This document shows positions 26,987-36,292 of a stretch of DNA of 64,000 nucleotides, in pieces (position 1 is the stretch's first letter; each line of letters begins with the position of its first letter). Below the pieces are notes generated by a model. That model was not told the origin of the DNA. It did no database searches and saw nothing but the letters and a program-made list of their open reading frames with translations. The DNA lies in assembly GCF_030813715.1 (NCBI RefSeq), contig NZ_JAUSUZ010000001.1:3472001-3536000 (forward strand), read 5' to 3'. The position numbers and the translations under genes are program-made. This DNA comes from Catenuloplanes indicus. Lineage in GTDB: Bacteria > Actinomycetota > Actinomycetes > Mycobacteriales > Micromonosporaceae.

Positions 26987-27721
26987 GTGCGGATAGCGCT
27001 CTTCATCACCTGCGTGAACGACCTGATGTACCCGGACACCGGCAGGGCCGTGGTATCCATTCTGGAGCGCCTCGGGCACACCGTCGACTTCCCGGAGGCG
27101 CAGACCTGCTGCGGCCAGATGCACGCGAACAGCGGCTACCGCGCGGAGGCGATGCCGATGGTGCGCGGGTTCGTGGGCACGTTCCGGCGCTACGACGCGG
27201 TGGTGGCCCCGTCCGGCTCCTGCGTGGCGATGGTGCGCGACTCGTACCCCCGGCTGGCCCTCGGCGATCCCGATCTGGAGCGGGGTGTGGCGGAGGTGGC
27301 GCCGCGCACGTACGAACTCGCGGAACTGCTGGTCGACGTGCTGGGCGTGACGGACCTGGGCGCGGTCTTCCCGCACACGGTGACGTATCACCCGACCTGT
27401 CACGGGCTGCGCATGCTGCGCCTCGGCGACAAGCCGCTGGCGCTGCTGCGCGCGGTGCGCGGTCTCCAGCTGCGCGAGCTGGCCGGCGCGGCGGAGTGCT
27501 GCGGGTTCGGCGGCACGTTCGCGGTGAAGAACGCCGGGGTCTCGGCCGCGATGCTGGCCGACAAGTGCGGCGCGGTCGACGACACCGGCGCCGAGTACGT
27601 CGTCGCGGCGGACAACTCGTGCCTGACGCACATCGGCGGCGGGCTGTCCCGCCGTGCCACGTCGACCGCGAGACCGATCCACTACGCCGAGATCCTCGCC
27701 AGCACCGGGAGTGCATCGTGA
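26987..27721 (+). CDS. lutA: LutA/LldE: lactate oxidation complex, cysteine-rich subunit
   Basis: The product is 244 residues. Two CCG domains are evident: FITCVNDLMYP and AQTCCGQMHANSGY in the first half, and TYHPTCHG with ECCGFGGTFAV in the second, the heterodisulphide-reductase-type cysteine sets that bind Fe-S clusters. LutABC together oxidise L-lactate to pyruvate without the flavin enzyme LldD. It starts at GTG 26987 after GGGAG. It overlaps lutB by four bases (GTGA), giving strict coupling. The position directly behind a GntR gene matches the lut/lld arrangement known in many bacteria. Confidence 0.95.
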   Translation: MRIALFITCVNDLMYPDTGRAVVSILERLGHTVDFPEAQTCCGQMHANSGYRAEAMPMVRGFVGTFRRYDAVVAPSGSCVAMVRDSYPRLALGDPDLERGVAEVAPRTYELAELLVDVLGVTDLGAVFPHTVTYHPTCHGLRMLRLGDKPLALLRAVRGLQLRELAGAAECCGFGGTFAVKNAGVSAAMLADKCGAVDDTGAEYVVAADNSCLTHIGGGLSRRATSTARPIHYAEILASTGSAS

Positions 27722-29121
27722 ACGGGACCGGGAACATCGTCGCGCTGAAACCGTTCCCGGACGCGGCGCGGCTGGAGCTGGACGACGCGCAACTGCGGGC
27801 GAACCTGCGACGCGCCACGCACACGATCCGGGACAAGCGGCTGCGCGTGGTCGGCGAGGTCGACGACTGGGAGGCACTGCGCCGGGCCGGTGCCGCGATC
27901 AAGGACGACGTGCTGGCCCGCCTGCCCGAGCTGCTGGAACAGTTCGAGGCGTCGGTGACCCGGGCCGGCGCGGTGGTGCACTGGGCCCGGGACGCGGACG
28001 AGGCGTGCGAGATCGTCACCCGGCTGGTCCAGGAGACCGCGGCGCGCGAGGTGGTCAAGGTCAAGTCGATGGCCACCCAGGAGATCGGGCTCAACGAGGC
28101 GCTGGAGGCGGTCGGCATCGAGGCCACCGAGACCGACCTCGCGGAGCTCATCGTGCAGCTCGCCGACGACACGCCGTCACACATCCTGGTCCCGGCGATC
28201 CACTACAACCGCAGCCAGATCCGGGACATCTTCCGGTCCCGCATGCCCGGCGCCGCGGCCGACCTGACCGACGACCCGCCCGCGCTGGCCGAGGCCGCGC
28301 GCAAGCACCTGCGGGCCAAGTTCCTCAGCGCCACGGTCGGCGTCTCCGGCGCGAACTTCGCGATCGCGGACACCGGCACGCTGGTCGTGGTCGAGTCCGA
28401 GGGCAACGGGCGGATGTGCCTGACGCTGCCGCAGACGCTGATCTCCGTGGTCGGCATCGAGAAGATCCTGCCGACGTTCGCCGAGCTGGAGGTGTTCCTG
28501 CAGCTGCTGCCGCGCTCGTCGACCGGGGAGCGGATGAACCCGTACACGTCGATGTGGACCGGGGTCACGCCCGGCGACGGGCCGCAGGCCACGCACGTCG
28601 TGCTGATCGACAACGGGCGAACCGCGACGCTGGGTGACGAGGTCGGGCGGCAGGCGCTGCGGTGCATCCGCTGTTCCGCGTGCCTGAACGTGTGCCCGGT
28701 CTACGAGCGGGTGGGCGGGCACGCGTACGGGTCGGTCTATCCCGGGCCGATCGGCGCGATCCTGTCGCCGCAGATGACCGGCGAGGGTGCGAACAAGACG
28801 CTGCCGTACGCGTCGTCGCTCTGCGGCGCCTGTTTCGACGCCTGCCCGGTGCGGATCGACATCCCCCAGGTGCTGGTGCACCTGCGGCAGAAAGGGCCGA
28901 AACCCCCGGCGGAACGGGCCGCGTTCCGGTCGCTCGCCTGGATCATGCGGGACCGGCGCCGGTACGCCGCCGCGCTGCGTGCCGCCCGCCGGGGCAGCGC
29001 GCCGCTGCGCGGGTTCGGGCGCCTGCGCCGGCTGCCGTGGCCGGCCTCCGCGTGGACGGACAGCCGGGACGTGCCGCTGCCGCCGAAGCAGACCTTCCGG
29101 GAATGGTGGGCCAAGCGATGA
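27718..29121 (+). CDS. lutB: LutB/LldF: iron-sulphur lactate oxidation subunit
   Basis: The product is 467 residues. An LUD domain (about 60-300; VKVKSMATQEIGLNEAL, SGANFAIADTGTLVVVESEG) is followed by a bacterial ferredoxin-like double [4Fe-4S] region: CIRCSACLNVCPVYE (about 316-330) and SLCGACFDACPVRID (about 369-383). This is the electron-transfer subunit of the L-lactate oxidising LutABC complex. It overlaps lutA by four bases and lutC by four bases (ATGA at 29118-29121). The C-terminal 70 residues are Arg-rich and end FREWWAKR, usual for the family. Confidence 0.96.
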   Translation: MNGTGNIVALKPFPDAARLELDDAQLRANLRRATHTIRDKRLRVVGEVDDWEALRRAGAAIKDDVLARLPELLEQFEASVTRAGAVVHWARDADEACEIVTRLVQETAAREVVKVKSMATQEIGLNEALEAVGIEATETDLAELIVQLADDTPSHILVPAIHYNRSQIRDIFRSRMPGAAADLTDDPPALAEAARKHLRAKFLSATVGVSGANFAIADTGTLVVVESEGNGRMCLTLPQTLISVVGIEKILPTFAELEVFLQLLPRSSTGERMNPYTSMWTGVTPGDGPQATHVVLIDNGRTATLGDEVGRQALRCIRCSACLNVCPVYERVGGHAYGSVYPGPIGAILSPQMTGEGANKTLPYASSLCGACFDACPVRIDIPQVLVHLRQKGPKPPAERAAFRSLAWIMRDRRRYAAALRAARRGSAPLRGFGRLRRLPWPASAWTDSRDVPLPPKQTFREWWAKR

Positions 29122-29729
29122 GCGACGCGCGTACGGAGATCCTGGCCCGGGTCCGGGCCCGCCGCCCAGCCTCGGCGCCGCCGGTGCCCCGCGACTACCG
29201 GCGCGACGTGCCCGGCATCGACGTGGTCGAGGTGCTGGTGGACCGGCTGGCCGACTACAAGGCCGGTGTGCACCGGGCGTCCGCGGTGTCGCTGGCGGAC
29301 GTGCTCGGCGGCCTGCTGACGGCCTCGTCCACCGTGGTGGTGCCGCCCGGTCTGCCGGCCTCGTGGATCCCCGGCCCGGTCCTGCGGGACTCGCCCGGCG
29401 CACCGGTCCCGGTCGCCGCGCTCGACGCACCCGGCGTCACCGTGGTCACCGGCGTCGCGGTCGCGATCGCGGTCACCGGCACGCTGATCCTGGACGCCGC
29501 TCCGGACCAGGGCCGGCGGGTACTCAGCCTGGTGCCGGACCACCACGTCTGCGTGGTCTGGATGGACCAGATCTGCGGCGGCGTACCGGCCGCGCTCGGC
29601 CGGCTCACCGACCCGGCGCGGCCGCTCACGCTCATCTCCGGGCCGTCCGCGACCAGCGACATCGAACTCAACCGGGTGGAGGGCGTGCACGGCCCTCGCC
29701 GGCTGGACGTCGTCATCGCCACGCGCTGA
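29118..29729 (+). CDS. lutC: LutC/LldG: LUD-domain lactate oxidation subunit
   Basis: The product is 203 residues. It consists of a single LUD domain with VTGVAVAIAVTGTLILDAAP (about 109-128) and LVPDHHVCVVWMDQI, ending in the signature SATSDIELNRVEGVHGPRRL. It completes the LutABC complex that oxidises L-lactate to pyruvate. The ATG overlaps the lutB stop. No lactate permease gene (lutP/lldP) follows; the next gene is a lipoprotein on the other strand. The lactate handled here may therefore be produced inside the cell. Confidence 0.95.
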   Translation: MSDARTEILARVRARRPASAPPVPRDYRRDVPGIDVVEVLVDRLADYKAGVHRASAVSLADVLGGLLTASSTVVVPPGLPASWIPGPVLRDSPGAPVPVAALDAPGVTVVTGVAVAIAVTGTLILDAAPDQGRRVLSLVPDHHVCVVWMDQICGGVPAALGRLTDPARPLTLISGPSATSDIELNRVEGVHGPRRLDVVIATR

Positions 29730-29767: not shown

Positions 29768-30565
29768 TCAGGCGTTGAACAGCTCGTAGAGGATCTCGGG
29801 TGTCTCCGCGGTCTCGGCCGCGGCCGGCGGTGCGACCGCGGTGGCGCCGCCGTACGCGTAGGTGACCTCGTAGGAGTACGCCGGCACGGCACCGATCGCC
29901 GGGATCTCGACGGTGAGCGCGGTCAGCTGACCGGCCGGGTCCACGGTGGCGGTGAACGGGACGGCCTCGACCGTGTCACCGGCCTTCGCCACGTCGATCT
30001 GCTCCCACCCGGTGACGCCGGTCAGGTCGAGCGTGCCGGCGTACGTACCGGTGCCGGTCCCGGTGACGCCGGACGCGGTGGCGAGCAGCGCACCGGCGTT
30101 GCCCGGGTCGACGTCGGCCGGCGTGAACGACGTGGGCAGCGCGTCGGCGTCGCCGCCGGTGCGGGCCGGGTCGACCTTCAGCCACCTGTCCGGCAGCTCC
30201 GGCAGACCCGGCAGGTCCCGGTCCGCGTCGAACGTGATGCGCACCCAGGACTCCGCGCCGACGACCCGGAACCGCATGTTCATCGTGAATCCGGCCTCCT
30301 TCTCCTCGTACGACGTGGCCAGGTCGTAGCTCTTCGCGACCGGACTGGAGACACCCGTCATGTGCTGGGGCGTCCCCTCGGCGTCCAGGCCGGCGACGGT
30401 GTAGCCGAACGGTGCCGCGCCCGGGCCCGGCGCGGACGCGGTCAGCACCTCCTCGGGGGTCTTCGCGGCCACGGCCGCGACCTCCTCGGTGAGGCCGCAG
30501 CCGGACAGACCCGCGACCATGAGGAGCGCGAGACCGGCGGCACGGGACGCTACTGCAGCAGACAT
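29768..30565 (-). CDS. LppX/LprG-like lipoprotein (putative)
   Basis: This 265-residue precursor has a lipoprotein signal, with lipobox VAGLSGC and acyl-Cys near residue 23. The mature part is rich in Thr, Gly and Asp and contains repeated beta-strand patterns: FGYTVAGL, FTMNMRFRVVGAESWVRITF and YSYEVTYAYGG. Together with the dominant beta character this resembles the half-barrel LppX/LprAFG lipoproteins, which carry lipids to the cell surface. The assignment is from shape, not close identity. The ATG at 30565 directly precedes the hydrophobic core. It is divergent from the SARP fusion gene with 162 bases between. Confidence 0.65.
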   Translation of the reverse strand: MSAAVASRAAGLALLMVAGLSGCGLTEEVAAVAAKTPEEVLTASAPGPGAAPFGYTVAGLDAEGTPQHMTGVSSPVAKSYDLATSYEEKEAGFTMNMRFRVVGAESWVRITFDADRDLPGLPELPDRWLKVDPARTGGDADALPTSFTPADVDPGNAGALLATASGVTGTGTGTYAGTLDLTGVTGWEQIDVAKAGDTVEAVPFTATVDPAGQLTALTVEIPAIGAVPAYSYEVTYAYGGATAVAPPAAAETAETPEILYELFNA

Positions 30566-30727
30566 GTCACATAGCTCTCTGTCGAAACGAAGGACGTGCC
30601 GGGAACCGTCGCGGACGCCGCTGCCGGATCGCTGCCGAGCCACTGCCGGATCCTGCCGATCGACTGCCACACCAGGGAAATGTGCTGCTAGAGTCGCCCC
30701 CGCGAGCCTTGGGGGGAGGAGACGCAG

Positions 30728-32299
30728 GTGCCGGTCCGCTATGGAATTCTCGGCCCGTTGCGGGCGACGGCCGGCGGCGGCGAGGTCGACCTCGGGCCGG
30801 CGAAACAGCGCGCGGTGCTCGCGCTGCTGCTCCTCGAAGCGAACCGCCCGGTCCCGGCCGCCGCGATCGTGGACGCGGTGTGGGCCGACGACCCACCGGA
30901 GAACGGCGCGAACGTGGTGCAGAAGCACATCGCCGGGCTGCGCCGGGCGCTGGAGCCGGACCGGTCGCCCCGCGCGCCCAGCAGCGTGCTCACCCTGGAC
31001 GGTGCCGGCTACCGGCTGCTCGTCGAGCCGGGCGCGCTGGACACCGACACCTTCGACTCGTCGGTACGCGGTGCCCGCGCGCTGCTGGCCGACGGTGACC
31101 CGGGTGCCGCTGCCACCGCGCTGCGGTCCGCGCTGCTGCTCTGGCGCGGCCAGGCGCTGGCCGGGTTCGGCGGTCGCGTCTTCGACACCGCGCGCCGGCG
31201 GCTGGACGACACCCGCGGCGCGGCCTGGGAGCTGCTGGCCGAGGCGGAGCTGGCGCTGGGCCGGCACGCGTCGCTCGGCGCGGAGCTGGCCCGGGTGGTC
31301 GAGGAGTTCCCGGCGCGGGAGGAACTGCGCGGTGCGCTGCTGCTGGCGCTCTACCGGCAGGGGCGGCAGGCCGAGGCGCTGACCGCGTTCCGCGAGGCGC
31401 GCGACTATCTGCACGACGAGTTCGGGGTGGAGCCGGGCGAGCGGCTGCAGGACCTGCACCGGCGGATCCTCCGCTCGGACGCGTCGCTGGCGCTCCCGGC
31501 GGCGGCGCCCGCGCCCGCGGTGTCACCGGCACCGGCGGTCGTCGTGCCGGTGCCCGCGCAGCCGGCCGCCGTGCCGCCGGTCGTCGTGCACCTGTCCGCT
31601 CCGGCCGCCCGGCGGGTGGACCTGTCCGGCCGGGCCTGGATGAAGGCCGTCCTGTTCGGCGGCATCGCGTTCGGGTCGCTCGGCTGGCTGACCTGGCTGG
31701 TCATCGGCATCGTGGCCTGGGTGCGGCGCAGCTGGGGGCACGGCGCCGCCGCCGTCCTCTACGCGATGTGCCTGGTCGGCATGATCGTGCTCATCGAGAG
31801 CGGCAAGCTCGACCCGGAGAGCGACCTGGTCTCCGTCTGGGACGTCTACATGGCGATCTGCGTGGTGGTCCCGATGCTGGCCGGCGCGCTGCACGGAGTG
31901 CTGCTGGCGTTCGTCCCGCGGCCGGCCGGCGGCGCGACCGGCGAGGTCCTCGCGGACGAGGTGCGGGAGGCCAACCGGCAGCAGGCCCGGCAGATCCTCA
32001 CCTACCGGCCGGACATCGCGGCCGAGCTGGGCATCGGCCGGCCGGACCTGATCCGCTGGTACGACGACGGTGGCCTGCTCGACGTGAACGCCGTGCCGGA
32101 GGCGCTGCTGGTGACGCTGCCCGGGGTGACCGCCGAGATGGCCCACGACCTGGCCGCGGAACGCGCGCGCGGCGGGCCGTTCGGCTCACCGGAGGACCTG
32201 GTGGCCCGCGGCGCGCTACCCCGGCGCCGCGCCGACGCGCTGCGGCCGTTGCTGATCTTCGGCGCCGGAACGCCTACGACGGCGCTCCGGCGAGACTGA
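30728..32299 (+). CDS. SARP/BTAD regulator fused to a three-helix membrane region and a helix-hairpin-helix domain
   Basis: The product is 523 residues. Residues 1-95 form an OmpR-type winged helix (VRYGILGPLRAT through LTLDGAGYRLL). Residues about 96-245 are the BTAD bundle typical of SARP/AfsR activators. A Pro/Ala/Val linker (250-295) leads to three hydrophobic helices (about 305-332, 340-357, 372-396). A cytoplasmic tail follows with a ComEA-like helix-hairpin-helix (about 451-497: LDVNAVPEALLVTLPG, then GGPFGSPEDLVARGAL). GGAGGA seven bases before the GTG at 30728 fixes the start. A SARP held in the membrane with a second DNA- or protein-binding domain is unusual. Its last 26 bases overlap convergent cvnD. 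Confidence 0.88.
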   Translation: MPVRYGILGPLRATAGGGEVDLGPAKQRAVLALLLLEANRPVPAAAIVDAVWADDPPENGANVVQKHIAGLRRALEPDRSPRAPSSVLTLDGAGYRLLVEPGALDTDTFDSSVRGARALLADGDPGAAATALRSALLLWRGQALAGFGGRVFDTARRRLDDTRGAAWELLAEAELALGRHASLGAELARVVEEFPAREELRGALLLALYRQGRQAEALTAFREARDYLHDEFGVEPGERLQDLHRRILRSDASLALPAAAPAPAVSPAPAVVVPVPAQPAAVPPVVVHLSAPAARRVDLSGRAWMKAVLFGGIAFGSLGWLTWLVIGIVAWVRRSWGHGAAAVLYAMCLVGMIVLIESGKLDPESDLVSVWDVYMAICVVVPMLAGALHGVLLAFVPRPAGGATGEVLADEVREANRQQARQILTYRPDIAAELGIGRPDLIRWYDDGGLLDVNAVPEALLVTLPGVTAEMAHDLAAERARGGPFGSPEDLVARGALPRRRADALRPLLIFGAGTPTTALRRD

Positions 32300-32876
32300 G
32301 GCCGCGGCGCTCGGCCACGTACTCCACCAGCGCGATCAGCACGCTCTTGCCGGACCGGCGGTCCCGGGCGTCGCACAGCACGATCGGCACCTCCGGGTCG
32401 AGGTCGAGCGCGGTCCGCAGCGCGGCCTCGGTGATCTGCTTGTGCCCCTCGAACATGTTGACCGCGACCACGAACGGCGTGCCGCGCTGCTCGAAGTAGT
32501 CGACGGACGGGAAGCAGTCCGCGAGCCGCCGGGTGTCGGCCAGCACGACCGCGCCGAGCGCGCCGAACGCCAGCTCGTCCCAGAGGAACCAGAACCGGTC
32601 CTGGCCGGGCGTGCCGAACAGGTAGATCTGCAGGTCCTCGCTGATCGTGATGCGCCCGAAGTCCATCGCGACCGTGGTGGTGCCCTTCTGCTCGACGCCG
32701 AACGTGTCGTCCACGTCCAGCCCGAGGCCGGTCAGCACCTCCTCGGTCTGCAGTGGCCGGACCTCGCTGACGGAGCCGACCAGCGTGGTCTTCCCGGCGC
32801 CGAAGCCACCCGCGATCAAGATCTTGAGAGCCGTCGGTACGGTGACCGACTGCTCGTCATAGCGCACGGAGCCCAT
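32274..32876 (-). CDS. cvnD: CvnD-type small GTPase of a conservon
   Basis: This 200-residue GTP-binding protein has the P-loop GGFGAGKTTLVG (about 20-31), a G3-like segment FGTPGQDRFWFLW (about 84-96) and a NKxD-equivalent AVNMFEGHKQ (about 132-141). This is the CvnD family of Streptomyces conservons, where CvnA (sensor kinase-like), B (roadblock), C (DUF742) and D form a membrane complex like eukaryotic G-protein signalling. The ATG at 32876 overlaps cvnC by 20 bases. Its 3' end overlaps the convergent SARP fusion gene by 26 bases. A P450 gene, often the fifth conservon member, is not adjacent. Confidence 0.95.
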   Translation of the reverse strand: MGSVRYDEQSVTVPTALKILIAGGFGAGKTTLVGSVSEVRPLQTEEVLTGLGLDVDDTFGVEQKGTTTVAMDFGRITISEDLQIYLFGTPGQDRFWFLWDELAFGALGAVVLADTRRLADCFPSVDYFEQRGTPFVVAVNMFEGHKQITEAALRTALDLDPEVPIVLCDARDRRSGKSVLIALVEYVAERRGLSLAGAPS

Positions 32877-33261
32877 TAACAACCGCCTTGAGGATGTCTT
32901 CGTCATGCCGGCGAGCCGCGGGCGGCTCGTACATGGAGATCAGGTCGGCGGCCAGCAGGTCGCCGAGGAGGACCCGGATCACGCCGAGCGCCAGGTTCAG
33001 TTTCGCGGCCACCTCGGCCACCGAGAGCGGCTCCCGCGAGGCTGCGAGGATCGCGCGCTGCTCCGGGCTCAGGTGGGCCGGCCACGCGTTCTCCCCGCCC
33101 CGGGAGACGACGAACGCCACCAGGTCGAACCCGCCGGCTACCGGGCGCACCCGGCCGCCGGTCACCGCGTAGGCGCGGACGACCGGGCCGGCGTCGTCGT
33201 CCATCCAGTGCGTCTCCGGCTCGTCCGGCCGCCGCGGCATGTCCGGTGGTCTATCCCGCAT
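32857..33261 (-). CDS. cvnC: CvnC-type DUF742 protein
   Basis: The product is 134 residues. DUF742 is a winged-helix-like domain; recognisable parts are VRAYAVTGGRVRP (about 27-39), EQRAILAASREPLSVAEVAAKL (in two blocks), LNLALGVIRVLLGDL and the closing DEDILKAVVNGLRAL. In conservons this protein bridges the roadblock protein and the GTPase. The gene overlaps cvnB by 11 bases and cvnD by 20 bases, the tight overlaps expected of cvn operons. The N-terminal Pro/Arg-rich 25 residues are variable in the family. Confidence 0.95.
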   Translation of the reverse strand: MRDRPPDMPRRPDEPETHWMDDDAGPVVRAYAVTGGRVRPVAGGFDLVAFVVSRGGENAWPAHLSPEQRAILAASREPLSVAEVAAKLNLALGVIRVLLGDLLAADLISMYEPPAARRHDEDILKAVVNGLRAL

Positions 33262-33673
33262 CAGTGTGCACCCCCGGGGTTCGCTGGGTGGCGCTCATGG
33301 TCTGCCCCACCCGGGTGACGAGCATGGCCATCTCGTACGCGATCAGCCCGATGTCGGAGTCCGACGCGGCGAGCACGGCGAGGCACGCACCCGCCCCGGC
33401 CGCGGTCACGAACAGGTACGCGGACTCCATCTCGACCACGGTCTGCCGAACCGGACCGGCGCCGAAGTGGCGGCTGGCGCCCTTGGCGAGGCTCTGGAAG
33501 CCGGCCGCCATCGCGGACATGTGCTCCGCGTCCTCCCGGCTCAGACTCCGCGACGAGCCCATCAGCAGGCCGTCGGAGGAGAGCACCACCGCCTGGTGCG
33601 CCGTCGGGACCCGGTCGATCAGGTCGTCGAGCAGCCAGTTGAGGTTGGCGGAGGAGGTCATCTGCTGTGCCAC
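33251..33673 (-). CDS. cvnB: CvnB-type roadblock/LC7 protein
   Basis: The product is 140 residues. The roadblock/LC7 fold covers nearly all of it: LNWLLDDLIDRVPTAHQAVV, SSDGLLMGSS, MSAMAAGFQSLAKGASRHFG and LFVTAAGAGACLAVLA. Roadblock proteins act as GTPase regulators or scaffolds; in conservons CvnB interacts with CvnA and CvnD. A GTG at 33673 with AGGGACG upstream abuts the cvnA stop exactly; an ATG at 33661, four codons later, is an alternative. It is encoded directly downstream of the sensor kinase. Confidence 0.95.
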   Translation of the reverse strand: MAQQMTSSANLNWLLDDLIDRVPTAHQAVVLSSDGLLMGSSRSLSREDAEHMSAMAAGFQSLAKGASRHFGAGPVRQTVVEMESAYLFVTAAGAGACLAVLAASDSDIGLIAYEMAMLVTRVGQTMSATQRTPGVHTDAG

Positions 33674-36292
33674 TTATGCGTCCCTGTCTGTCACCTGGTG
33701 CGTGCTGTGCTCTGCCGCGTCGTTCTCCACGGCCGCGCTGGACTGCACGGTCGTCGGCGTGCCGACCGTGGGGATCTCGGCGTCCGGGGCCGGCGTCAGC
33801 ACCGCGCCGGGCGGCGGCGTCGCGGTGGCGCGCACGGCCTCGCTCCGCTGCTGCGGTACCGCCTGGCCGGCGGTCATCGCCTCGGCCGCGCGCCGGCCGC
33901 GCTTCGTGCCCGCCTGGAGCGCGGACATCAAACTGCGGACCTGATCAGGGGTACGCGGTGCGGCCTCCGCCGGCGCGGGGGGCGCCGCGGCACGCCCCGG
34001 GCGGAGCTGCGGTGCCAGGTTCGCCTGGCGCACGCGCTTGGGCAGGCCGTCCATCGTGGTGGTCTCCTCCGGGTCGTCCCCCGGGTTCGCGTCCGTCGTC
34101 TCCCGCCCCGGCTGCGGCATGGCGAGCGTCGGCGCGTCCTCGCCGTCCTCTGTCGTCCTATTCTCCGTGTCCGATGTGATGGCTGCGATCGGGGCCGCCT
34201 TGCGGCGTTTCGTCGACCGGCGCCCGGGGAGTTCCATCCCATCGACCACGACCGTGCCGATCGTCTCACCCACCGGCCGGGCGCTGCGCGCGGGTTCGAT
34301 CTCACGCGGCTGCGCCGGGCGGGCGTCGACCGCCGTGCGGCCGTTCTGCGGCGGGGTGACCGGCTGCGCCACGGCGAACCGGGGCAGCGCCGGCTCGACG
34401 ACGGTCACCAGCTCGCTCGGGACGAGCACGACCGCGGACACACCGCCGTAGGGCGAGGCGCGCAGGCTGACCTGGATCTGGTGGCGCGCGGCCAGCTGGG
34501 CGACCACGAACAGGCCGAGGCGGGCGCTGTTCGCCGGGTCGAACTCCGGTGGCTCGGCGAGCCGGCGGTTCGCGTCGGCCAGTTCCTCGGGTGTCATGCC
34601 GAGGCCGCGGTCCTCCACCTCGATCGCGTACCCGTTCGGCACCGGCTGGCCGCCGACCCGGACCCGGGTGTGCGGCGGCGAGAACGACGTCCCGTTCTCG
34701 ATCAGCTCGGCCAGCAGGTGGATCACGTCGCCGACCGCGCGGCCGACCACCGCGACGTCGTCCGCCACGCCGATGTCGACGCGCGCGTAGTCCTCGACCT
34801 CGGAGACCGCGCCACGGACCACGTCGATCATCGGGACCGGGTTGCGCCAGCCCCGGCCCGGGACCGCGCCCGCGAGGATCACCAGGTCCTCCGCGTGGCG
34901 CCGCATGCGGGTCGCCATGTGGTCGACGCGGAACAGGTCGGCCAGCTCGTCCGGGTCGGTGACCCGGCGCTCCATCCGGTCCAGCAGCGCGAGCTGGCGG
35001 TGCAGCAGCGTCTGGCTGCGCCGCGCGATGTTGAGGAAGACGTCGTTGAGGCCGCGGCGCAGCGCCGCCTCGTCCACCGCTGCCTGCACCGCGGTGCGCT
35101 GGACCTCGGTGAACGCGTTGCCGAGCTGGCCGATCTCGTCGGTGCCGAACTCCAGGCTGCGCGTCTCCGCGGTCACGTCGACCTCGTCGCCGCGCCGCAG
35201 CCGGGTGACCACCTCGGGCAGCCGGTGACCGGCCAGGTCGGTGGCGGCGGCGCGCAGCTCGGACAGGCGCTTGATCAGGGACCGGCCGACCTTGACGGAG
35301 ATCACCAGGGACAGCACGATCGCGGCCAGGCCGAGCAGACCGGCGACGGCGAGCAGCCCGAGCGTACGGACCGCGAGCGGGACCGCGTCCTCGGCCGCGC
35401 GGTCCGCGGTGAACTGCTCGAAGCCGCGCAGCTGCAACGCGACCTGGTCGTAGGTGCGGGTCCACTGGGTCAGCCCGATCGGCACCGCCTTGCCGTCCGC
35501 GCCGGACGTGATGAGCGCGTTCTCCATGTTGTTCATGCGCTCGAAGACCGGCGATTGGATCAACAGGTTGTAGCGCTGCCGCGTCTCCGCGTCGAGATCG
35601 GCCACCGCGGTGTCGTACAGGTACCGATACGTACCGATTATCTGCACCATTTGACCGTGCTCGCTGATCTGGAACCGGCCGGCCGTGGAGGCGCCGGCGA
35701 CCAGCGCGTCCACCTGGCCGAGCACCTCACGGGCCTGGCCGAGCTGCGCCATCGCGTTCGCCCGGCGGCTGAGTACCGGGTCGTCGTACTGGCTGACCAG
35801 GTCGAAGACCTTGAACATGTCGCCGATCACCGCACTGTAGAACCGCAGCGCGCCCGGCTTGTCCACCTCGCGCGAGTCGACGAACGCGCGCTGCCGCGGG
35901 ACCGCGTCCAGCGACGTGTACGCGGTCTCCAGCCGGCGGCCCAGTTCCTCAGCGGCGTCCGCGTGCTCCGCGGACAGCTCCCGGAACGAGGCCATCGCGG
36001 CGTCCGTACGCTCCCGCTGCTCGGTCAGCGCCACGCTGTCCTGCCGCGCGGTGGGCGTGCTCGCGGTGCCGGCCAGATAGACCAGGGACAGCCGGCGCTC
36101 CTGCTGCAGCTCCGCCACCAGCTCCTCGCCGGGACGGCCCACCCCGTCGAGCACGTCCTGCGACGCCAGCAGGCGCAGCGCCGGGTCGACGGTCAGCACG
36201 GTGGCGAAGACCCAGAGGGCCAGCAGCGCCACGAGCGGCACCGACACCAGCGAGATGATCTTCGATCGGATCGACCAGTTCCGGATGTTCAT
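33674..36292 (-). CDS. cvnA: CvnA-type nitrate/nitrite-sensing-domain histidine kinase-like protein
   Basis: The product is 872 residues. A first helix at about 13-33 and a second at about 312-335 enclose an extracellular NIT-like sensing domain (about 40-305, with GEELVAELQQERRLSLVYLAG). A HAMP region and coiled helix (340-430) follow. The HATPase domain (about 500-630) has ELIENGTSFSPP as N box and VEDRGLGMT as G1 box. The last 240 residues are a disordered Pro/Ala/Thr-rich tail. In conservons CvnA is the membrane sensor that recruits CvnB-D. The ATG at 36292 is chosen because upstream frame sequence is antisense to other genes. It is divergent from the paired membrane and acidic genes at 36554. 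Confidence 0.94.
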   Translation of the reverse strand: MNIRNWSIRSKIISLVSVPLVALLALWVFATVLTVDPALRLLASQDVLDGVGRPGEELVAELQQERRLSLVYLAGTASTPTARQDSVALTEQRERTDAAMASFRELSAEHADAAEELGRRLETAYTSLDAVPRQRAFVDSREVDKPGALRFYSAVIGDMFKVFDLVSQYDDPVLSRRANAMAQLGQAREVLGQVDALVAGASTAGRFQISEHGQMVQIIGTYRYLYDTAVADLDAETRQRYNLLIQSPVFERMNNMENALITSGADGKAVPIGLTQWTRTYDQVALQLRGFEQFTADRAAEDAVPLAVRTLGLLAVAGLLGLAAIVLSLVISVKVGRSLIKRLSELRAAATDLAGHRLPEVVTRLRRGDEVDVTAETRSLEFGTDEIGQLGNAFTEVQRTAVQAAVDEAALRRGLNDVFLNIARRSQTLLHRQLALLDRMERRVTDPDELADLFRVDHMATRMRRHAEDLVILAGAVPGRGWRNPVPMIDVVRGAVSEVEDYARVDIGVADDVAVVGRAVGDVIHLLAELIENGTSFSPPHTRVRVGGQPVPNGYAIEVEDRGLGMTPEELADANRRLAEPPEFDPANSARLGLFVVAQLAARHQIQVSLRASPYGGVSAVVLVPSELVTVVEPALPRFAVAQPVTPPQNGRTAVDARPAQPREIEPARSARPVGETIGTVVVDGMELPGRRSTKRRKAAPIAAITSDTENRTTEDGEDAPTLAMPQPGRETTDANPGDDPEETTTMDGLPKRVRQANLAPQLRPGRAAAPPAPAEAAPRTPDQVRSLMSALQAGTKRGRRAAEAMTAGQAVPQQRSEAVRATATPPPGAVLTPAPDAEIPTVGTPTTVQSSAAVENDAAEHSTHQVTDRDA

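Follow-up and report, generated by a model that had tools for sequence, protein, structure and literature searches.

The window analysed here is a stretch of 64,000 nucleotides from the actinomycete Catenuloplanes indicus (Micromonosporaceae). It contains a gene that joins a SARP regulator, in a single open reading frame, to a predicted membrane module and a C-terminal HhH tail. This fusion gene is flanked by a divergent lipoprotein gene and, on its 3′ side, by a convergent conservon, whose four genes we take to bear the names CvnA, CvnB, CvnC and CvnD. The relevant features are the following:

29768..30565, minus strand: lipoprotein gene, 265 aa, with a lipobox cysteine and a predicted LprG-like fold
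30621..30669, plus strand: direct-repeat array of CTGCC(G/A) units, proposed SARP operator
30689..30694, plus strand: TAGAGT, possible −10 element of the fusion gene, found by eye
30728..32299, plus strand: fusion gene (SARP, linker, membrane module and HhH), 523 codons in one open reading frame
30728..31477, plus strand: SARP half, residues 1-250, OmpR-type DNA-binding domain and BTAD (by Pfam, Foldseek and sequence)
31484..31627, plus strand: Pro/Ala-rich linker, residues 253-300, 48 aa
31628..31912, plus strand: predicted membrane module, residues 301-395, a split first segment and two long helices
31943..32296, plus strand: tail, residues 406-523, with a degenerate HHH_3-type HhH, predicted cytoplasmic
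32274..32906, minus strand: CvnD-like GTPase gene, convergent with the fusion gene
32857..33261, minus strand: CvnC-like gene
33251..33673, minus strand: CvnB-like gene
33674..36292, minus strand: CvnA-like sensor kinase gene

Two further genes lie beyond the lipoprotein gene in the window (27496-29729), and likewise in both fusion-bearing relatives within the genus; they are presumably the lactate-utilisation genes lutB and lutC.

The fusion gene starts with GTG, and a GGAGG-type ribosome site lies just 5′ of the start. Pfam places Trans_reg_C at residues 25-97 (7.6e-13, 48.8 bits) and BTAD at residues 104-248 (3e-39, 135.1 bits), both above cut-off, and HHH_3 at residues 451-493 (9.7e-6, 26.0 bits), just below the cut-off of 27.0; ATPase or TPR domains were not found in the protein by Pfam. 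An OmpR-type DNA-binding domain followed by BTAD, the arrangement that marks a SARP, is present. In the AlphaFold model of the fusion protein (mean pLDDT 87, pTM 0.58, 48 sequences) the SARP half superposes by Foldseek on the SARP part of AfsR (8k60) with a target TM of 0.92-0.93 at 38% identity. AfsR and EmbR were also matched by this half in sequence comparison, and the DNA-binding domain of CadC ranked eighth among the Foldseek matches (E 8.8e-3). The linker that follows has 48 aa in the window and 48-225 aa across 48 aligned fusions, and residues 272-294 within it are modelled with a pLDDT below 50.

Conservation of the fusion

The first-pass annotation of this DNA had described a SARP/BTAD regulator joined to membrane segments and an HhH. 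Related genomes confirm that this is a real, conserved gene. Three of the five genomes of the genus carry it at full length, namely that of the window and two with orthologues at 75% and 67% identity; the remaining two have other SARPs only. With the C-terminal part as query, 106 of 200 genomes of the family gave matches, spread over 22 of 44 genera; a number of the matches are modules without a SARP. SARP and C-terminal module share one open frame in 47 of 60 family loci that were fetched. The other 13 comprise one locus with the two halves in different frames (L079), one at a contig start (L068), one with no SARP within the 16 kb fetched (L083), and ten, picked among weaker matches, with modules lacking an in-frame SARP.

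A scan of named genomes using the C-terminus of the window's fusion protein as query gave no match; a profile-based scan found 384 relatives, the best 80 of which were kept. Fifty-five of these 80 are fused, 16 are membrane-HhH proteins without a SARP, seven lie at a contig start (L155, L162, L168, L172, L194, L204 and L227), one is in different frames (L184) and one has no SARP (L157). The family and named sets overlap and are not additive, and the genomes counted are related, so that the counts do not represent independent events. L079 and L184 are the same locus, from Micromonospora sp. PLK6-60, and L083 and L157 are likewise one locus, from Micromonospora marina, where the C-terminal module stands without the SARP half.

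Fused genera include Micromonospora, Plantactinospora, Catellatospora, Dactylosporangium, Actinomadura and Thermomonospora, and thus span two orders, the Micromonosporales and the Streptosporangiales. When 102 SARP domains were placed in one tree, the 75 from fusions grouped as a single clade (support 0.968), separate from the 27 non-fused SARPs, all of which come from the window's genus.

The membrane module and the HhH tail

Three hydrophobic segments are centred at residues 316-324, 345-353 and 374-389. AlphaFold models the first of them as a pair of short helices (301-316 and 322-333), with further helices at 336-357 and 370-395. Together they bear out, at the level of prediction, the earlier proposal that the SARP is tethered at the membrane. 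Mean counts in 48 fusions are 2.4 K/R and 0.3 D/E for the flank preceding the first segment, and 3.1 K/R with no acidic residue for the loop that follows this segment. The next loop, after the second segment, has 0.2 K/R and 3.8 D/E, and the flank after the last segment 6.3 K/R and 3.4 D/E. The predicted outer loop is acidic and only about 12-17 residues long. Since both flanks of the first segment are positive and the segment itself is split, it most likely dips into the membrane and returns, which would leave SARP and HhH both in the cytoplasm.

Support for this arrangement comes from three loci (L257-L259) that were opened among places matching only the membrane part of the profile. In these, the membrane module (profile E 1.2e-19 to 1.3e-17) is followed by a Ser/Thr kinase domain, recognised by Pfam in L257 and L259 and by eye in L258. 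The module itself has no Pfam match in L257 or L259, and HhH is absent from all three loci. The two genes recognised by Pfam are:

L257, 523-2055, minus strand: module-kinase gene (Pfam)
L259, 1360-2658, plus strand: module-kinase gene (Pfam)

A kinase inside the cell on the C-terminal side of the module, together with a SARP inside on its N-terminal side, provides independent support for both ends facing inwards. Judged from the charge pattern, the AlphaFold model and these kinase fusions, both ends of the module are probably cytoplasmic.

At four other loci (L111, L113, L116 and L118), module and HhH stand behind an N-terminal stretch that appears BRCT-like by eye, with sub-threshold Pfam matches in L113 and L118 and none in L111 and L116. 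The module profile was matched in 186 of 197 genomes of the class; most of the places listed correspond to HhH alone, and about 25, counted by hand, cover nearly the whole module. The module may be an input domain in general use among actinobacteria. It is combined with SARP, kinase and BRCT-like partners, has no Pfam match, and looks like an undescribed sensor domain.

The first-pass annotation had also regarded the C-terminus as a second nucleic-acid-binding motif. Of this claim the fold stands: searched against the PDB, a profile built from 35 sequences of the C-terminal module (A1) retrieved EEPD1 (1.5e-19) and ComEA (8dss, 9.6e-11). Weaker matches were PsbU and type II secretion protein K, which we take not to be DNA proteins. 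The DNA-binding role is doubtful. Across 48 fusions the tail has a mean net charge of −1.1 (range −5 to 3) and a mean of 0.46 lysines; that of the window protein is near-neutral and has no lysine at all. Of the G-h-G hairpin, the second glycine survives in only seven of the 48, the window protein not being among them. In Vibrio cholerae ComEA a lysine pair, K62/K63, is described as needed for DNA binding (PMC3879209); neither this pair nor the G-h-G hairpin is found in the fusion, and it is the HHH_3 fold, by profile, that the two have in common. EEPD1 and Tex likewise lack the second hairpin glycine in the alignment, so that its loss alone decides little. Upstream of the HhH, the tail contains an invariant GRPD...DDGGL.D.N. 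The HhH is lost altogether in one relative:

L273, 5021-6283, plus strand: SARP-membrane protein ending after the membrane part

This locus has kept the SARP (by Pfam), the membrane part (profile E 1.6e-15), the lipoprotein gene and the conservon. The tail and repeat-spacing analyses left out L196, where the gene starts at a contig edge. On its sequence, the tail is a doubtful second DNA binder. Its low charge and scarce lysines, and the existence of L273, make a role in protein contact or oligomerisation more likely.

The intergenic repeats and the neighbouring genes

The fusion gene and the lipoprotein gene are separated by 162 bp, which include the repeat array. Both the array and the divergent gene had been overlooked in the first-pass annotation. 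The array units start at 30621, 30632, 30643, 30653 and 30664, with spacings of 11, 11, 10 and 11 bp. SARP sites are described as direct repeats at 11 or 22 bp (PMC10936776), and 11-bp direct repeats are also given as SARP sites in a review of the family (PMC10972967); this spacing is found in the fusion's own upstream region. Of 48 upstream regions of the family, 38 contain one or more CTGCCG pairs spaced by exactly 11 bp, and ten have no such exact pair. In total there are 66 of these pairs in 48 × 220 bp against 3 in a 1.43 Mb control, made up of the same regions with both strands counted. In a random-window control a pair occurred in 108 of 20,000 windows, draws holding the last 50 nt before a gene having been skipped yet still counted.

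A motif-free test gave the same period. Lag 11 was the strongest on average in 48 Micromonosporaceae fusion upstreams (0.581; other lags 0.441, sd 0.017) and in 19 Actinomadura-type fusion upstreams (0.557; others 0.436, sd 0.027). In 27 other SARPs it reached 0.458, second to lag 24. In single upstreams lag 11 was best in 23 of the 48, 8 of the 19 and 5 of the 27, respectively. When 17 of these 48 upstreams, chosen by shared start, are aligned, the array and the ribosome sites appear by eye as the most conserved intergenic stretches.

The exact triple occurs once in its own genome, at the fusion promoter. Across 200 genomes of the family it occurs at 45 places, 29 of them within 2.6 kb of C-module places, as judged against 59 such places; the other 16 are close to the reversed-pattern background of 20. 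A large regulon was considered and dropped: allowing up to three mismatches, the triple occurs at 212 places in its own genome and the reversed control at 169, although weaker sites may exist.

How the array is placed relative to the promoter is less clear-cut. The 3′ repeat is described as lying 8 bp from the −10 element at SARP promoters (PMC10936776), whereas the possible −10 element TAGAGT, which is also seen in L062 and L063, sits 19 bp past the last array unit; a sigma-70 match was not found at the fusion promoter. The promoter geometry thus fits a SARP in its repeat spacing, but not obviously in its −10 distance. In many other genera TATGCT lies inside the array, and self-repression would therefore also fit.

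A divergent lipobox gene, recognised by start codon, lipobox and distance, adjoins the fusion in 45 of the 55 fused named loci, in both orders. The ten that fail this criterion include L196, at a contig edge, L174, where BLAST finds the gene, L195 and L200, which look positive by eye, and all four Catellatospora loci. As a BLAST query, the window lipoprotein itself finds a relative at 29 of the 55. It has no Pfam match and was not identified by sequence searches of the PDB; a fold search alone gave a match. With its AlphaFold model (mean pLDDT 84, 19 sequences), the five best PDB matches were all Mycobacterium tuberculosis LprG (1.2e-6 to 1.7e-5, target TM 0.59-0.63, 15-16% identity), and LolA and RseB ranked lower. 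The Actinomadura-type lipoproteins resemble it in position and layout, but not convincingly in sequence: hhalign of the two groups gave an unconvincing probability of 40, and 13 Actinomadura-type lipoproteins matched four Pfam families weakly (best 0.01). Beyond the lipoprotein, several Actinomadura-type loci (L183, L185, L189, L193 and others) show by eye a frame resembling a ZIP-type metal transporter; L191 was grouped with them, but the frame was not seen in its printed lines.

The lipoprotein family is present in 177 of 200 genomes of the family, with at least 1-9 copies per genome, only the best candidates having been scored; copies are sometimes close together on one contig. At 12 fetched loci a strong lipoprotein relative is present while fusion and array are absent, and none of the 12 has an 11-bp pair. 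By eye, a RecQ-like helicase frame follows instead at ten of them (L261-L270). Relatives of the lipoprotein thus survive without fusion and array, and the regulator is not a requirement for it.

The first-pass annotation had drawn attention to the conservon beside the fusion. It does adjoin the gene in the window, convergently and with a 26 bp overlap, but there is no general tie. A conservon was found at nine of the 60 family loci, in two genera (three fusion-bearing genomes of the genus, the window's among them, and six loci from a second genus), and near none of the best 80 named C-modules, with flanks of up to 5 kb. It was therefore rejected as a conserved partner; the commoner neighbour is the lipoprotein gene.

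Interpretation and comparison with known systems

On the fusion, its conservation, the array with its link to the fusion, and the lipoprotein neighbour, all computed directly, we base a reading that we consider rather probable: the protein is a membrane-embedded one-component SARP that controls its own gene and the lipoprotein gene. From the same data we infer its binding to the array, its function in the membrane, its topology, its signal and the sense of the control, activation or repression. The SARP half would bind side by side on the 11-bp direct repeats, as AfsR does, and from within the 162-bp region could control both genes. The Pro/Ala linker would give the SARP reach to the DNA, while the C-terminal module would hold the protein at the membrane. 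The membrane module, seen also alone, behind a BRCT-like domain and ahead of Ser/Thr kinases, would act as the input, an actinobacterial domain whose two ends both face the cytoplasm, and the HhH tail would more likely serve protein contact or oligomerisation than DNA binding. The signal would probably be the state of the membrane or cell envelope, given that the neighbouring gene encodes a lipid-carrier-like lipoprotein. Only tentatively do we extend this reading to an envelope-lipid sensing unit convergent with ToxR/ToxS: a promiscuous two-ends-in module, found also with Ser/Thr kinases, would provide the input to a SARP acting in place on a private operator, the LprG-like lipoprotein would be both target and co-sensor, and the HhH would have turned from DNA binding to signalling contact.

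The lipoprotein could instead be a co-component of the sensor, binding lipid outside the membrane and passing the signal on to the SARP by way of the membrane module, in the manner of VtrC with VtrA or ToxS with ToxR. A lipid-carrier-like fold beside a membrane-bound OmpR-type regulator, in a divergent pairing that recurs across two orders, suggests as much, and the neighbour in VtrA/VtrC is described as a lipid-binding, lipocalin-like protein (PMC9214523). However, the genes are divergent and form no operon, the outer loop of the fusion is tiny, and lipoprotein relatives exist without the fusion and as paralogues, all of which speaks against an obligate pair and makes this scheme unlikely. 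Still less likely is a regulator stored at the membrane and released by cleavage in the linker: all 48 fusions have a flexible Pro/Ala stretch between SARP and membrane module where a cut could fall, but its length varies widely, from 48 to 225 aa.

A device for tethering DNA, with SARP and HhH as its two binding ends, would draw on the kinship of the HHH_3 fold with ComEA and EEPD1 and on the predicted location of the HhH on the same side as the DNA, and the missing glycine, shared with EEPD1 and Tex, is a weak argument against it. The slightly negative, lysine-poor tail, the lysine pair on which ComEA depends (PMC3879209), the loss of the HhH in L273 and the weaker matches to PsbU and type II secretion protein K nevertheless render it improbable. 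That the fusion is an effector or partner of the conservon is very unlikely. Their adjacency in three genomes of the genus, at six loci of another and in L273 is outweighed by the 51 of 60 and 80 of 80 loci where no conservon was found near the C-module, and convergent genes would not be co-transcribed. As for a frameshift or assembly artefact, or a split of the orthologues at residue 250, which the first-pass annotation had named as grounds for abandoning the fusion, the split frames of Micromonospora sp. PLK6-60 and the missing SARP half of M. marina are the kind of case it would predict. The full-length orthologues and the single frame at most family and named loci refute it, and its probability is negligible.

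The known role of SARPs is to activate antibiotic clusters. If a membrane-embedded SARP is indeed maintained in two orders, together with a private 11-bp operator and a neighbouring gene for an envelope lipoprotein, actinomycetes would have a means of coupling the state of the membrane directly to SARP-type transcription. With its predicted operator and its small set of targets, this reading is directly testable. Among the titles and abstract openings listed by our searches of the open-access PMC literature, none names a membrane-bound SARP.

With the AfsR/SARP family the fusion shares the OmpR-type DNA-binding domain and BTAD, the AfsR fold and the 11-bp direct repeats upstream; it differs in its C-terminal membrane module and HhH and in having no ATPase or TPR domain that could be found. 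EmbR (2fez) is similar in being a SARP that carries another C-terminal domain, but is soluble, with an FHA domain, unlike the predicted membrane-anchored fusion. Small, medium, large and SARP-LAL forms are distinguished in the SARP review cited above, whose main text uses neither the word membrane nor the word transmembrane (PMC10972967).

VtrA/VtrC and ToxR/ToxS resemble the present locus in that a membrane-tethered regulator adjoins the gene for a lipid-binding-like beta protein, a likeness that here rests on a model with moderate fold similarity. The locus differs in its divergent genes, its lipoprotein, its tiny outer loop and a partner that is not obligatory; the operon or overlapping genes and the obligate partner of VtrA/VtrC are not found. 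The lipoprotein is similar to LprG/LppX in predicted fold (3mh8, Foldseek 1.2e-6, target TM 0.63), but at 16% identity and with no Pfam match. ComEA (8dss) has the HHH_3 fold in common with the fusion, whose HhH differs in being predicted cytoplasmic and in mostly missing the lysines and the second hairpin glycine.

ToxR and CadC share with the fusion an N-terminal OmpR-type DNA-binding domain and a membrane anchor in one chain, the anchor being predicted here. CadC is described as having an N-terminal HTH, a single TM helix and a sensor in the periplasm (PMC9214523), whereas the fusion has BTAD in addition and a multi-helix module with both ends predicted inside. Its C-terminal side being predicted cytoplasmic, it has no place for the C-terminal extracytoplasmic sensor of ToxR/CadC, and is for this reason not classed with them despite the similar layout. 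Because it has the defining domains and the repeat spacing of a SARP, we would class it, on sequence grounds, as a variant form of that family.
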